Shown one piece after another: positions 1,562 through 7,588 of a DNA stretch of 39,475 nucleotides (position 1 is the stretch's first letter; every line of letters starts with the position of its first letter). Below the pieces are notes generated by a model, which saw nothing but the letters and a program-made list of their open reading frames with translations, was not told the origin of the DNA and did not search any database. Location of the stretch: positions 1 through 39,475 of the forward strand of contig JAUIEW010000015.1 in assembly GCA_030429365.1 (NCBI GenBank), written 5' to 3'. The position numbers were made by a program, and so were the translations under genes. The DNA is from Phycisphaerae bacterium (GTDB taxonomy: Bacteria > Planctomycetota > Phycisphaerae > UBA1845).

Positions 1562-1859
1562 CGCTCTCCTCCTCTCCTCTTTCAAATGTGGGCAACCAGC
1601 ACTGGGGGGCTGGATTGACCCAAACATACGCTTCCTTATTTGAGATATGATATCCCCCGCGAATGAACACTTGATTTTTCAAAAACCCTTCATCAATCTC
1701 GGCCCGCATAACCTCCAGAGTCCGCTTCACGCCCCCGTAAAGGCCGATAACTCCAGTCAAAACGGGCAGGTTCCGATATTAAACGCGAGTACCGCCGTTC
1801 TGCGCCGATTGTGATGATCGGACGCTGATTCCGTTATTGAGCGGTTGAAGGAGCCGTCC

Positions 1860-4800
1860 ATGGATTCCACGTATTTCGAAACGTTTGGATTGAATCGTCC
1901 TCCGTTTGAGGAAACGACCAGCGTCACGTTCTTCCACGCCAACTCCGCATGCGAACGCATCATGCAGGCCGTGAAAGAGCAGCTCAACAGCGGTGGGGTG
2001 TCGCTCATCAAAGGTGCGGACGGTTGCGGCAAGAGCATCCTCGCCCAGGCGATGGTGGCGCGGTTTAAGTCCGAGGCGCGGATTCTCTCGTTATCGGTTC
2101 CGCCACCCAACGCGACTCAAAAGCAGGCGAATCCGGGCCAGTCGGACATCGGTGGAACATCACGCCGTGGTATCGATCAGGTCGCCGGCGAAATCGTGGA
2201 GATCATCGCGGAGGCGACGGACAAAAAGTGCGCCGTCATCATCGATCAGGCGCAGCACCTTCTGACGGACGACCTTGTATCCCTGTACGAGCACATCGAT
2301 TCGGCCGGCAAACGTGGGCTGAAGCTTTCGGTTGTGCTGGTTGGCAGCGAAGCGATCGAGAACACGCTCCGAACAGACGAACTCAAGACGATCGCCGGCG
2401 CAGTGAAGCGACTTGGCGAATTGACCGCCATGCACGGGGCTGACACCGAAAACTACATCCTGAATCGAATGAGCGTCGCCGGTGCGAAGAACAAAAAGAT
2501 ATTTGCACGCAAGGCCATTCGGCGCATCGCTGAAATGACCGGGGGTGTTCCCAGAAAAATAAACGACTTAGCGAAGAGAGCCATGCACCACGCCGCCAAA
2601 GAAAAACAGACCAACATCACCGCGTCTATGGTTTCCAAGTGCGCCGCAGATTCGGGGCAGGAAGAAAACCAGCAGCAGCAATTACAAGAGCGTCCCAAGA
2701 TCTCATCCGGCAAAGTCGAAGGGATGGTCCGACAGCTTCAGGAGGCACTGGCCAAGATCCCGGCGACGGTCGGCGGCGGTACGGGTCAGGATCAAGACGA
2801 TGTCGCCCACACCCTCGAAGAATTGGCGGAAAGCACGGGAGAAGCCGATGCCCGTGCATCATCGCTCAAAGCCGCGATTCAGCGGGCGGAAGAGACGCAT
2901 GGCCAACTCGTTGACTTCGCGGATGCCCTTTCACGCATCGGTTCATCAACGGACGAACGCATCGAATTGTTGCTCACCAGTCTGGAGTCGGCTCAGCAGA
3001 TTCACGAAGAGTTGCAGCACATTGGCGATCAGGCCCAGGCGTTGATCGACGAGTCGCGCAATGTCGTCGCCGACGAGCATGACAAGATGCTTGCGCAGTT
3101 GGACGAATTGACCTGTCGGCGGGAAGAGCTGTCGAATGTTATCGATCAGTTCAAACACGAGCAGGAAGAGGCATTGCGCGACGCCCGACGGGAAGTCGAA
3201 GAGAAGGTCGCCATCATTCGCGACGAAATGGATGCGGCTGGCTCTGAATCCAAACGCGTCCTCGCCGATGCCGAACATGCACTGAAACGCGCCGAGCGCA
3301 ACCTCAAAGATACGTCGAACCTGGGTGAGCAGGTCGAGCAGTCGCTCAACGATGCCCGGCACTTGGAAGGGAATCTGTCCAAGACGTTTGCGCAGATTCG
3401 CCAGGACCTGTCGACCCATCGAGAAAATGCTGCGGCGGCCACCACTGCCCACGAGCAATGTCGCCAAGCCGCCATGGATGCGCGCAAGATCGCGGAAGAG
3501 ACAACAGCAGGCGCGGCGAAGCTGATCGAGTTGGACGCCCAAGCCAAGGCCCAACAGGAACAACTCGAAGGCTCCATCGAAAACGCCAACGCGACGGCTG
3601 GGCAAATTCACAAGCAGATCGAAGATGCCCGCCGGGAATTCGAAGAACGCCACGAAACGATTCACGACAGCATTCGCCAGGTTGGTGATGGTATCCAGGA
3701 GCGGTTGGCCGGCGGGATTCAAGAGGTTGTCCGGCTGACCGACAACGCAACGGACAAGATCAACCGTGCGGCGATCGCCATCGACGAGCAGAAGAACGAT
3801 TCGGTCAACGCGATCAAGACGCTAAGTGACGAATCGACAACCGAAATTCACTCGGCGCGGGATAAGTCAGCCAATTCGATCAAGACGTGTCGCGATGATG
3901 CGATGGATGCGATTCAGTCCGCCGGTCAGCAGATCGAAGCCCGCATCGCCGACAGCATCCGTCGCTATGAGCAACTCGTTGCGGCGGAAGATGCGGCGGC
4001 GAAGCGTGCAGAAGAAGCCACAGCCCACGCCAGCACGATGATGAACCGCGTCAGTCAAAGCGAAGCCAAGCTTGCCGAAACGCAGCAGTCGATCCTCAAT
4101 ATCGAAGCACTGGCGGCAGAGACCCTGGCATCGGTTCAGTCGCGTCTCAAGACGATGCAGGACTCGGTGAACGTTATCGTCGACAGCGGTGCGTCACGGG
4201 CCAAGATGATGCTGGACGAGTCGCTGGCAGCGTTCCAGGACGAAGCGCTCGGAATCTCAGAATCGCTGCGGAACTCGGCCACCGACATTCAGGACTCGAT
4301 GCAGTCGCAGGCGCAGGAGATTGGAGCCAACTTCGAAACCAGAAAGCATGCCGCTCAGGAAATCATCGATCAGTTCGCGGTGTCGGTTGACGAACTTGCC
4401 CTCAGCAAGATCACTCACGCCCGAGAAACCGTTGAGCGGATAGCGGCTGACGCCAAGTCGGCGCTTGAACAGCACAAGTCCAGCCTCATCAAGGATGTCG
4501 AAGCCCATGCGGCGAACTGCGATGTCCGGATGACGGAGCTGTCGCAGAGCAAGACCGATCAGGTCAGTCGTCAGATTCAGGAGCAGGGCGGTATCGCCAT
4601 CACCACGATTCAAAAGACCGCGACGGAATCGAAAGAAAACCTCAAGAATCTCTCACTCGAAATCGACAAGAAGTCCCGCGCCGCACTCGTGACGGTTGAA
4701 GACACGGCGATCGCAACGTCAGAACAGGCTGAGAAGCGGGTCAACACAGCCGCTCTCGCAGCCGCGAAAGCCATTCAGGACAAAATCGCCAGCGCCACCG

Positions 4801-6032
4801 AGACGGTCACAATCCTCGATGAGGCCATCGTCAGCGGTAACGACATGGTCGCCCACGCGGACGAGCGTCGCGAGAAGATCAACCAATTGATCCAAGAAGT
4901 CTGGGCGCTGACCAACACGACTGATCACCGCGCCCGTTCGCTTGAAGCACTGTCCACCAAAGCCAAGGCGTGCGAAGAGAACATCGGTTCGCTGGTCGAT
5001 CAAGCCGCCTCGCGCATCGTCGCCCTTCAGGATCAAAACCAGTTGGCCGACCAGAACGGCGCCAACCTCGCGTCGCAGCAGGAACAGGCCGAGACGCTGT
5101 CAGAAGAGCTTTCGAAGCAGTTGAACGTGGCCAAGTCGCTGCACGGTGAGTTGAACGAAGCGAACGCGGCTGGCAAGCAGATCGAAGCCAGCATGGCCGC
5201 CCACGCCGAGGAGATTCAAGAGCTTGTGGCGACGGCTGACGCGATCGTGAAAACCATTCGTGAAGACGACGAGCGGGCGGCAGAGATCAGTGCAAGCGTC
5301 AAGCACTCGGCTGGCATCGCGGAAAACGTCGAGAAGCGTCTCGGCGACTTGCAGCAGTCGTTGGCCGACCCGATCAGCACGATTCAAAACGCCCGCGCCC
5401 AAGCCGACGAACTCAACGAGTTGTGCCTGGCAGTCAAGCGCATCTTCAGGGGCGTGTCGCAAGCCAGTCTCGATGCCAATGAACGCATCAAGATGATGGG
5501 CAAGATGCTCAGCGCATCGCACAAGACAGCCGAAACCATGAAGCAGTGGGTGACGGAAGCGGAGCATTCACGCGAGCGACTCGAAGCGGCGATCAAGTCA
5601 GCCCCTTCAATCAACGACACGCATCCGGCGACCTTGATGCCCGATACGTCCGACTTTGTCGACAGCATTCCGTCACCGGTGGGCGCGAATGACTTGGCGG
5701 CTGTCACCAAAGTGGCGCGATCTGCGCCGCCGCAGCAGGCGCCCAAAACCGCATCGAACGGTCGCTCAGCAGGATCGAGCCAAGCCACAACATCGTCGAA
5801 ACCCAAGACGATCAAGTTTGAGGGTCCGGAAGCAGAAGATGTGGAGGAGCGGTTCGAGCCAGCCAGTACCGTGAAACGCGCGAATCAGCGGGCTGTCGCG
5901 ACCAATCCAAAACCGGCGAAGATCGATTCGGAAGAGACGTTCGAGCAGCCTCAGAAGCGAAATCGACTCAGCGCTGAAGACGTCCGCAGCCTCATCGAAG
6001 CCGCGAAGAAAAAGTCGTCGGCAGTTGGCTAA
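1860..6032 (+). CDS. ExeA/GspA-like AAA+ ATPase fused to a very long coiled coil
   Basis: ATG 1860 has AAGGAG six bases upstream, better than the TTG at 1845, and gives 1390 residues. Residues 1-270 form an ExeA-type ATPase: an N-terminal YFETFGLNRPPFE block, Walker A GADGCGKS (52-59), Walker B CAVIIDQAQHL (124-134) and the terminal GGVPRKINDLAKRAM block (228-242). The Walker B motif reads DQ where ExeA relatives have DE, so the catalytic glutamate is missing. Residues about 285-1240 are almost unbroken coiled coil, rich in Ala, Glu, Gln and Lys. The last 150 residues are low-complexity and end in a short basic helix. No membrane segment is seen. ExeA proteins act at the cell wall in secretin assembly; here a cytoplasmic scaffold or positioning role is only an inference. 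A strong terminator follows at 6089. Confidence 0.85.
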   Translation: MDSTYFETFGLNRPPFEETTSVTFFHANSACERIMQAVKEQLNSGGVSLIKGADGCGKSILAQAMVARFKSEARILSLSVPPPNATQKQANPGQSDIGGTSRRGIDQVAGEIVEIIAEATDKKCAVIIDQAQHLLTDDLVSLYEHIDSAGKRGLKLSVVLVGSEAIENTLRTDELKTIAGAVKRLGELTAMHGADTENYILNRMSVAGAKNKKIFARKAIRRIAEMTGGVPRKINDLAKRAMHHAAKEKQTNITASMVSKCAADSGQEENQQQQLQERPKISSGKVEGMVRQLQEALAKIPATVGGGTGQDQDDVAHTLEELAESTGEADARASSLKAAIQRAEETHGQLVDFADALSRIGSSTDERIELLLTSLESAQQIHEELQHIGDQAQALIDESRNVVADEHDKMLAQLDELTCRREELSNVIDQFKHEQEEALRDARREVEEKVAIIRDEMDAAGSESKRVLADAEHALKRAERNLKDTSNLGEQVEQSLNDARHLEGNLSKTFAQIRQDLSTHRENAAAATTAHEQCRQAAMDARKIAEETTAGAAKLIELDAQAKAQQEQLEGSIENANATAGQIHKQIEDARREFEERHETIHDSIRQVGDGIQERLAGGIQEVVRLTDNATDKINRAAIAIDEQKNDSVNAIKTLSDESTTEIHSARDKSANSIKTCRDDAMDAIQSAGQQIEARIADSIRRYEQLVAAEDAAAKRAEEATAHASTMMNRVSQSEAKLAETQQSILNIEALAAETLASVQSRLKTMQDSVNVIVDSGASRAKMMLDESLAAFQDEALGISESLRNSATDIQDSMQSQAQEIGANFETRKHAAQEIIDQFAVSVDELALSKITHARETVERIAADAKSALEQHKSSLIKDVEAHAANCDVRMTELSQSKTDQVSRQIQEQGGIAITTIQKTATESKENLKNLSLEIDKKSRAALVTVEDTAIATSEQAEKRVNTAALAAAKAIQDKIASATETVTILDEAIVSGNDMVAHADERREKINQLIQEVWALTNTTDHRARSLEALSTKAKACEENIGSLVDQAASRIVALQDQNQLADQNGANLASQQEQAETLSEELSKQLNVAKSLHGELNEANAAGKQIEASMAAHAEEIQELVATADAIVKTIREDDERAAEISASVKHSAGIAENVEKRLGDLQQSLADPISTIQNARAQADELNELCLAVKRIFRGVSQASLDANERIKMMGKMLSASHKTAETMKQWVTEAEHSRERLEAAIKSAPSINDTHPATLMPDTSDFVDSIPSPVGANDLAAVTKVARSAPPQQAPKTASNGRSAGSSQATTSSKPKTIKFEGPEAEDVEERFEPASTVKRANQRAVATNPKPAKIDSEETFEQPQKRNRLSAEDVRSLIEAAKKKSSAVG

Positions 6033-6536: not shown

Positions 6537-6820
6537 CAACTCCCTCCTCTGGGTCGGCCCGTATTATCGTGCCATATGGGGGAAACTCATTACTGCTTTT
6601 TCTCTGGTTGTATTATCGTTCAAAAGCCCCATCCGACTGTACGCAAAACCGCGATGATCGGCATGGAGTGGGTCGTGAAAGCGCGTCCAAAAAACGGATG
6701 GTCGCATTTTGGCCGTCGTGCCGATATGCTCCTAAAGGCGGACTTGTCGGGCCAATCTGGTTCAAGATGGCGATGGTAAATGAGCCAAGATGGGAGATTG
6801 TTTTGTTGAAGGGTTCGAGC

Positions 6821-7588
6821 ATGATGGGTGTTGGAAAAGGACTAAAGTTGGCTGCAGGGTTCATTCTGATTTGCGGCGCGGTCGGAGGGTGTGCGGATCA
6901 GAAAAAAGGGATGGACCGTTTCTCCAAACCCATCTTCGCGACCAAGCCACGGCCCCGTAACCGGGTAATCCCGACGCCCGCTCCACCCCCTGTTCAGCAC
7001 TATGCCCAGCGACCGGTCCCGCGCCCCGCTCCCCGTCCTTTGCAGAGGCCTCAGACGGTGGTGGCCGAGCCAGGCTGGATTCCGCCCGGCGGGATCAAGA
7101 ATCGTTGGCGTGAGATCGTGCTGCACCACAGCGCGACGGCCAAGGGCGGCGCAGTCGCATTTGACCACGAGCATCGAAACGTTCGTAAGTGGGACGAACT
7201 CGGATACCATTTCGTCATCGGTAACGGTACGGACACCTATGACGGCAAGATCGAGGTGGGGTCTCGCTGGACGAAGCAAAAGACCGGCGCCCACTGCAAG
7301 ACGGGTGACAACTTCTACAACGAGCACGGCATCGGGATTTGCCTGGTTGGGAATTTCCAGAACACATCACCCACATCGGCTCAGATGGCCAGCGTCGACA
7401 AACTCGTCTTGTTCCTATCGCAACAATGCGGACTGTCGGCAGCCAACATCAAGAGTCACGGCGGCGTAACACACAAGACCGACTGCCCCGGGCGTCGGTT
7501 CCCTCTTTCAACGGTAAAGCGAAACTTAAGTCTGGCTCAGTCAAAGATGCAGACCGACATGTTGGCCACCGCCAACGTGGGGCGCTAG
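6821..7588 (+). CDS. N-acetylmuramoyl-L-alanine amidase (Amidase_2), lipoprotein
   Basis: This family cuts the amide bond between N-acetylmuramic acid and the peptide stem of peptidoglycan, using zinc. ATG 6821 (AAGGG about 10 bases upstream) gives 255 residues with a lipoprotein signal ending VGGC (Cys24), so the protein is probably tethered to the envelope. A Pro/Arg-rich linker (41-80) follows. The catalytic domain runs from about 95 to 235. Likely zinc ligands are His102 in LHHS, His213 in SHGG and Cys222 in DCPG. YHFVI (129-133) and GICLVGNF (172-179) are family blocks. The open frame extends upstream to 6464, but that part lacks a signal sequence and overlaps the FlgM-like gene region. 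A degenerate relative lies at 474-1043. Confidence 0.88.
   Translation: MMGVGKGLKLAAGFILICGAVGGCADQKKGMDRFSKPIFATKPRPRNRVIPTPAPPPVQHYAQRPVPRPAPRPLQRPQTVVAEPGWIPPGGIKNRWREIVLHHSATAKGGAVAFDHEHRNVRKWDELGYHFVIGNGTDTYDGKIEVGSRWTKQKTGAHCKTGDNFYNEHGIGICLVGNFQNTSPTSAQMASVDKLVLFLSQQCGLSAANIKSHGGVTHKTDCPGRRFPLSTVKRNLSLAQSKMQTDMLATANVGR

Follow-up and report, generated by a model that had tools for sequence, protein, structure and literature searches.

A family-specific coiled-coil protein of planctomycetes with an ExeA-derived AAA+ head that has probably lost ATP hydrolysis

The stretch of DNA analyzed here (the window) is 39,475 nucleotides long and makes up the whole contig JAUIEW010000015.1 of the 5.23-Mb, 455-contig genome of a Phycisphaerae bacterium (GCA_030429365.1). 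One open reading frame (ORF) at 1860-6032, on the + strand like every feature of the gene given below, encodes a protein of 1390 residues in which an ExeA-like AAA+ domain is joined to a coiled coil of about 945 residues. The Walker B motif of this domain has glutamine in place of the catalytic glutamate, and the substitution is conserved across the taxonomic family of the window genome (51 species, 32 genera; hereafter the family). With a probability of roughly 0.55, we consider the protein to be a cytoplasmic coiled-coil scaffold, specific to this family and mostly present in single copy, with an ExeA-derived pseudo-ATPase head, in which catalysis was lost once and the head is auxiliary. We found no published description of this protein in the open-access literature.

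The head occupies residues 1-273 (1860..2678) and was recognized as an ExeA/ORC-type AAA+ domain by domain models, an AlphaFold2 model and fold matches. Pfam AAA_22 covers residues 45-169 with 27.7 bits, above its curated cut-off of 27, and no further Pfam domain in the protein exceeds its own cut-off. NCBIfam TIGR03015, the ExeA-like XrtA/PEP-CTERM ATPase, aligns with residues 5-264 at 70.9 bits against a cut-off of 324.5, below the level of an equivalog. The modelled head (predicted local distance difference test score, pLDDT, 84.5) resembles Cdc6/ORC and MuB (Z 17.8) and TnsC (Z 17.7). Walker A, GADGCGKS at residues 52-59 (2013..2036), is intact here and at loci L164 and L168. Walker B, VIIDQ at residues 126-130 (2235..2249), continues as VIIDQAQ, with Asp129 encoded by GAT and Gln130 by CAG (2247-2249), so that the catalytic glutamate of DEAQ is missing. 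The initial annotation had described both the fusion, with about 950 residues of coiled coil, and the Glu-to-Gln change, and our analysis bears it out on both; its glutamine 129 is residue 130.

How widespread is this glutamine? A search of the family with the head returned one to three ExeA-like genes in nearly every genome. In alignments of the long-coil group, Walker B reads DQ in 28 species (16 genera); two species have DG, one has DN and none has DE. All five species of the window's genus encode residue 130 with CAG or CAA. A sequencing error or a one-off change is ruled out by the 28 species and by the CAG and CAA codons throughout the genus; the substitution is old and shared by planctomycete orthologues, a point that the initial annotation had left to alignment. 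The shorter ExeA paralogues of the same genomes have DEAQ or DDA(H/Q). We also scanned 84,980 species genomes for the pattern [LV][IVL][VI]DQA[EQ][NH]L and confirmed by tblastn 20 relatives, a set that covers those within tblastn reach of the window protein. Nineteen are labelled planctomycete and one Alphaproteobacteria, though its gene is 66% identical to that of the window; we regard this record (L145, JANQQE010000032.1) as a mislabelled planctomycete metagenome-assembled genome (MAG). At another locus (L177, G044:C211, 1-360) an unrelated, phage-tail-like N-terminal stretch of about 110 residues is joined to half an ATPase, and the contig is probably chimeric.

For residue-level comparison, 31 long-coil heads with Gln, Gly or Asn at position 130 (noE rows) were set against 49 E/D-type rows. 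On a tree for which the Walker B +1 and +3 positions were masked, two label changes are enough to account for the noE rows, whereas shuffled labels require about 25; a single loss of the catalytic glutamate fits this pattern.

Other residues have gone together with Glu130, which is present in 0/31 noE rows. Arg143 is kept in none of them (49/49 E/D-type rows have it), Asn147 in one (47/49), and the presumed arginine finger, Arg181, in six (48/49); Gln163, at the sensor-1 position, is partly lost (17/31 versus 46/49). In the window protein residue 181 is alanine (2400..2402), and in the AlphaFold2 model it is the final residue of helix 4, which precedes strand 5. From general knowledge of AAA+ proteins, this is presumably the arginine-finger place. 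The other set of positions is retained: Gly55, Gly57, Lys58, Ser/Thr59 and Asp129 in all 31 noE rows, and also Arg232 of sensor 2 (GxPR, 2553..2555; 29/31, and 49/49 in E/D-type rows), Asn235 (30/31), Tyr199 and Arg203. All seven binding residues chosen are retained, with a hypergeometric P=0.016 that is modest and depends on the threshold. Judged from the alignment, the nucleotide-binding set is kept and the hydrolysis set is gone, and with it the residue that should act in trans; this is the pattern of a binding-competent pseudo-ATPase. A hydrolysis defect of the head is likely and, since the nucleotide pocket is otherwise retained, ATP binding without hydrolysis is plausible.

It might be supposed that the catalytic base has been relocated and that the head is still an active ATPase. 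Most genera have DQAE instead of the canonical DEAQ, and Glu132, which would then be the base, is found in 24/31 noE rows at a position where E/D-type relatives have Gln or His. DQAQ in the window's genus (5/5) and in G011, and DQAH in G031, weaken the idea of a catalytic swap. The simultaneous loss of the arginine finger and Arg143 also speaks against it, as does the modelled place of residue 132, in the turn after the strand, and we regard such a swap as very unlikely. The same losses bear on a second proposal, in which the dead head joins active DEAQ ExeA paralogues and tethers or tunes them, like the inactive subunits of ORC or clamp loaders. Family genomes usually hold one or two DEAQ/DDA paralogues (in the window genome two DEAQ proteins of 525 and 274 residues), and the closest folds to the head are indeed ORC/Cdc6 and clamp-loader subunits. 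However, most heads have lost Arg143 and the presumed arginine finger, residues that would serve at a mixed interface, orthologues without any head exist, and the paralogues were not seen linked to the gene in the genome. Such a regulatory subunit therefore seems unlikely to us.

The direction of the change can be read from the outgroups. Paralogues, sister families and the rest of the class mostly have Glu at this position, with a minority of Asp, and so the alignment indicates a change from Glu to Gln. Sister families f2 and f3 of the same order (L103-L127) have ExeA plus long-coil fusions of 1000-2270 residues, whose Walker B is nearly always DEAQ and rarely DEGQ or DDAQ. Homologues with DE in the same architecture had been named beforehand as a sign of error in the window sequence; they were found here, and they point to ancestry rather than to error. 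The proteins from the sister families are without the WV.EA...THP block of the family's C-terminus. Comparison of the C-termini of the two groups by hhalign gave a score of 75 (E 9e-10), and coiled-coil controls reached scores up to 58 and E values down to 2e-7. Because such controls score too, the C-terminal homology is suggestive only, and the DEAQ long-coil proteins may be true orthologues. They also have a conserved C-terminal motif of their own, HT.RVGQLVGIIRQLYG.MDAR...LR.RL and LGE.V.RNQKLN.WLK, and are apparently undescribed.

In eight genes from seven genera (G006, G019, G035, G037, G038, G041, G042 and G043) the head is absent, which explains why some genes recovered through the C-terminal block had been missed with the head as query; the protein of G042 has 855 residues. 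After the start codon and a short N-terminus, these genes run straight into the coil, and the C-terminal block is present. No remnant of the head was detected in six frames of the DNA fetched, nor was a separate DQ-type head found among the ExeA-like genes examined in these genomes. Several other genes, truncated at contig ends or by an assembly gap, were not scored. On the C-terminal tree, over which the head-less genes are spread, presence and absence of the head require at least five changes, and we infer loss rather than late gain. The eight genes thus suggest that the coiled coil is the core of the protein and the ATPase is dispensable. Two of the head-less genomes (G042 and G043) have further ExeA-like paralogues (L181, L182, L184 and L185) with the degenerate Walker B sequences VENAHRL, VDGANAL, ADTADDL and VEDAHRL, and degeneration of ExeA proteins is thus recurrent in the family.

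Such deletions are also expected if the head is a functionless vestige, which has drifted since catalysis was lost and is eventually removed, while the coiled coil alone matters. The occurrence of Gln, Gly, Asn and Asp at position 130 is in keeping with passive decay of this kind, and so is the faster evolution of the ATPase within the genus (dN, nonsynonymous divergence, 0.14, versus 0.085 for the coil and 0.02 for the C-terminus); identity to the nearest relative is 77% in the head and 95% in the C-terminal block. However, drift should yield some half-broken P-loops, and none was seen in the 33 heads examined: GK[ST] is intact in all of them, and otherwise the entire domain is missing. Moreover, the ratio of nonsynonymous to synonymous divergence (dN/dS) to the nearest relative within the genus is about 0.14 for the head and about 0.08 for the coil, rough values, as synonymous sites are near saturation. 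These ratios indicate a real gene under purifying selection, the head included, and decay alone is in our judgment a rather doubtful explanation.

The coiled coil extends over residues ~301-1247 (2760..5600). Between residues 290 and 1235 there are two prolines only, and the 3.5-residue hydrophobic periodicity stands at z=19 against shuffled sequences, as in a long rod of the bacterial intermediate-filament-like type. The model of the C-terminal stretch (pLDDT 91.8) is a single straight helix that ends at residue 1247. Hydropathy gave no transmembrane segment in the whole protein (maximum KD19 0.87), and no periplasmic domain of the GspA type with such a segment was found, with no additional Pfam domain above cut-off. 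Kinship with SMC/Rad50 was considered and rejected: SMC models match the coil alone (928-1247 and 824-1187), far below cut-off, and the head is AAA_22 and not of the split ABC type. An orthologue with a DQ head and the C-terminal block has only 587 residues in total (L052, G045:C164, 8099-9862) and is a natural short-coil version, well suited to structural studies.

The conserved end of the stalk (residues 1171-1256, 5370..5627) has the family-specific signature P..I...AxxQAxxL..VC.AVRKVF.GLS..SL and WV.EA...RL...PS...THP. In complete long-coil members it is followed by a low-complexity linker and then a tail helix R..EI..LI.EAK, which in the window is NRLSAEDVRSLIEAAKKK (residues 1367-1390, 5958..6029; consensus RaxEIxxLIxEAKra) and is common to nearly all orthologues; the C-terminal block of G013 is degenerate. 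A search with a 52-residue part of this block, which makes no use of the ATPase, recovered the gene from 46/51 family genomes and from 29/30 of those of good quality, nearly always as one clear copy. The other genomes in a sample of 297 from the class gave three weak matches, and in 391 genomes drawn from the phylum a 145-residue C-terminal profile matched the window's genome alone. Pfam matches of the block, such as DUF948 (in 9/16 members) and tropomyosin, were judged to be coiled-coil background, and no sequence match to it was found in the PDB.

We therefore return to the coiled-coil scaffold with an auxiliary pseudo-ATPase head. Its conserved core would be the stalk with the C-terminal signature and the short tail helix; the C-terminus would be the working end, and the tail helix probably docks a partner. 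Catalysis would have been lost once, in the ancestor of the family, when Glu130 changed to Gln and the arginine finger and Arg143 disappeared; sensor 1 was lost in part as well. The head would still fold and very probably bind ATP or ADP, serving as a nucleotide-stabilized module for assembly or docking rather than as a motor. Being auxiliary, it could then be deleted, as seems to have happened in several lineages. Several points weigh against this reading. Retention of the P-loop could come in part from folding constraints, and the docking and assembly roles are read from anatomy. The orthologous heads of G008 and G030 carry Asp at position 130 (DD, with the P-loop intact), where slow hydrolysis could remain. 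The polarity, loss and not gain, is taken from DE homologues of sister families whose C-termini are suggestively homologous, and the genomes searched appear to be MAGs.

A bolder version is a tentative possibility: a permanently ATP-bound, non-cycling AAA+ cap, with a natural "ATP-trap" substitution, would nucleate or anchor a giant family-specific cytoskeletal scaffold, and lineages without the cap would anchor it otherwise. The initial annotation had likewise proposed a natural ATP-locked switch. Binding without hydrolysis agrees with that proposal as far as the head alone is concerned. However, the arginine finger and Arg143 are gone as well, and at least eight species have no head; as several lineages run the gene without it, its essential function must lie elsewhere than in an ATP lock.

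The gene begins at ATG 1860, six nucleotides downstream of a ribosome-binding site AAGGAG (1848..1853) read directly from the sequence, and ends with a stop at 6032; its extent is supported by the ORF call and by orthologues. A small uncharacterized protein is encoded upstream (474-1043) and an N-acetylmuramoyl-L-alanine amidase (Amidase_2) downstream (6701-7588), and ORFs at these positions also flank the gene in the remaining genomes of its genus. About a dozen loci (L044-L063, L131) have conserved genes upstream of the coiled-coil gene, for a ~200-residue protein of unknown function (GRCxVTGRP.EEGEEFYSVLFE), a ~290-residue lipoprotein-like protein, an RDD membrane protein and a LysM/YkuD L,D-transpeptidase. 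This set was found neither in the window's genus nor beside the head-less genes, where flanks are short, and the idea of a conserved operon partner was dropped. The placing of envelope machinery (secretion or pilus) by the switch, also proposed initially, hardly seems tenable. The ExeA/GspA ancestry and a substitution at the very position used in the laboratory (PMC7018516) speak for it. Against it, the neighbours seen are the amidase and small uncharacterized genes and include no secretion or pilus genes, the protein has no transmembrane segment or GspA-type periplasmic domain, eight orthologous genes lack the head, and YkuD/LysM and RDD genes lie near some orthologues only. Among named records the best matches come from Phycisphaerae MAGs, and Phycisphaerales bacterium UBA1845 is the closest of them, with a head that is 76% identical; going by the name of this MAG, the order is presumably GTDB UBA1845, which has been described (PMC11266412).

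An inactivating E-to-Q change, classic in the laboratory, would thus have arisen in evolution with the protein kept. The series from DEAQ (sister families) through DQ (most members) and DG/DN/DD to loss of the whole domain, in which the partner region stays conserved, may be a rare clean record of an AAA+ motor that became a pseudo-enzyme and was then discarded. The selectable value of nucleotide binding alone becomes testable, and a near-universal, uncharacterized gene of one uncultured planctomycete family is marked.

The AAA+ domain can be aligned from end to end with ExeA/GspA and the XrtA/PEP-CTERM ATPases (TIGR03015, AAA_22) and shares with them the P-loop, the Walker B Asp and the GxPR sensor 2. 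Unlike them, this protein lacks the catalytic Glu, in most members also the arginine finger, and any transmembrane or periplasmic domain, and it possesses a giant coiled coil and a unique C-terminus. The sister-family fusions have the same architecture and size, and possibly a homologous C-terminus, but nearly all differ by an intact DEAQ. MuB, TnsC and Cdc6/ORC (8xvb, 7plh, 1fnn) are alike in head fold (Z about 17.8), whereas they function in DNA replication or transposition and have no coiled coil. In Msp1 an engineered Walker B E-to-Q change abolishes hydrolysis and leaves ATP binding intact (PMC7018516), and the D1 site of Pex6 is a natural AAA+ site where ATP is bound, is not hydrolysable and has a structural role (PMC10518020); Pex1/Pex6, however, is a eukaryotic double-ring unfoldase with no family-level homology to our protein. 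The best model of how the protein may work is probably FrzS of Myxococcus, whose localization requires its degenerate N-terminal receiver, its coiled coil and its C-terminal tail alike (PMC1974792). FrzS and AglZ are analogous in their arrangement of pseudo-receiver, coiled coil and tail, although the head is unrelated and the coil of FrzS is much shorter.

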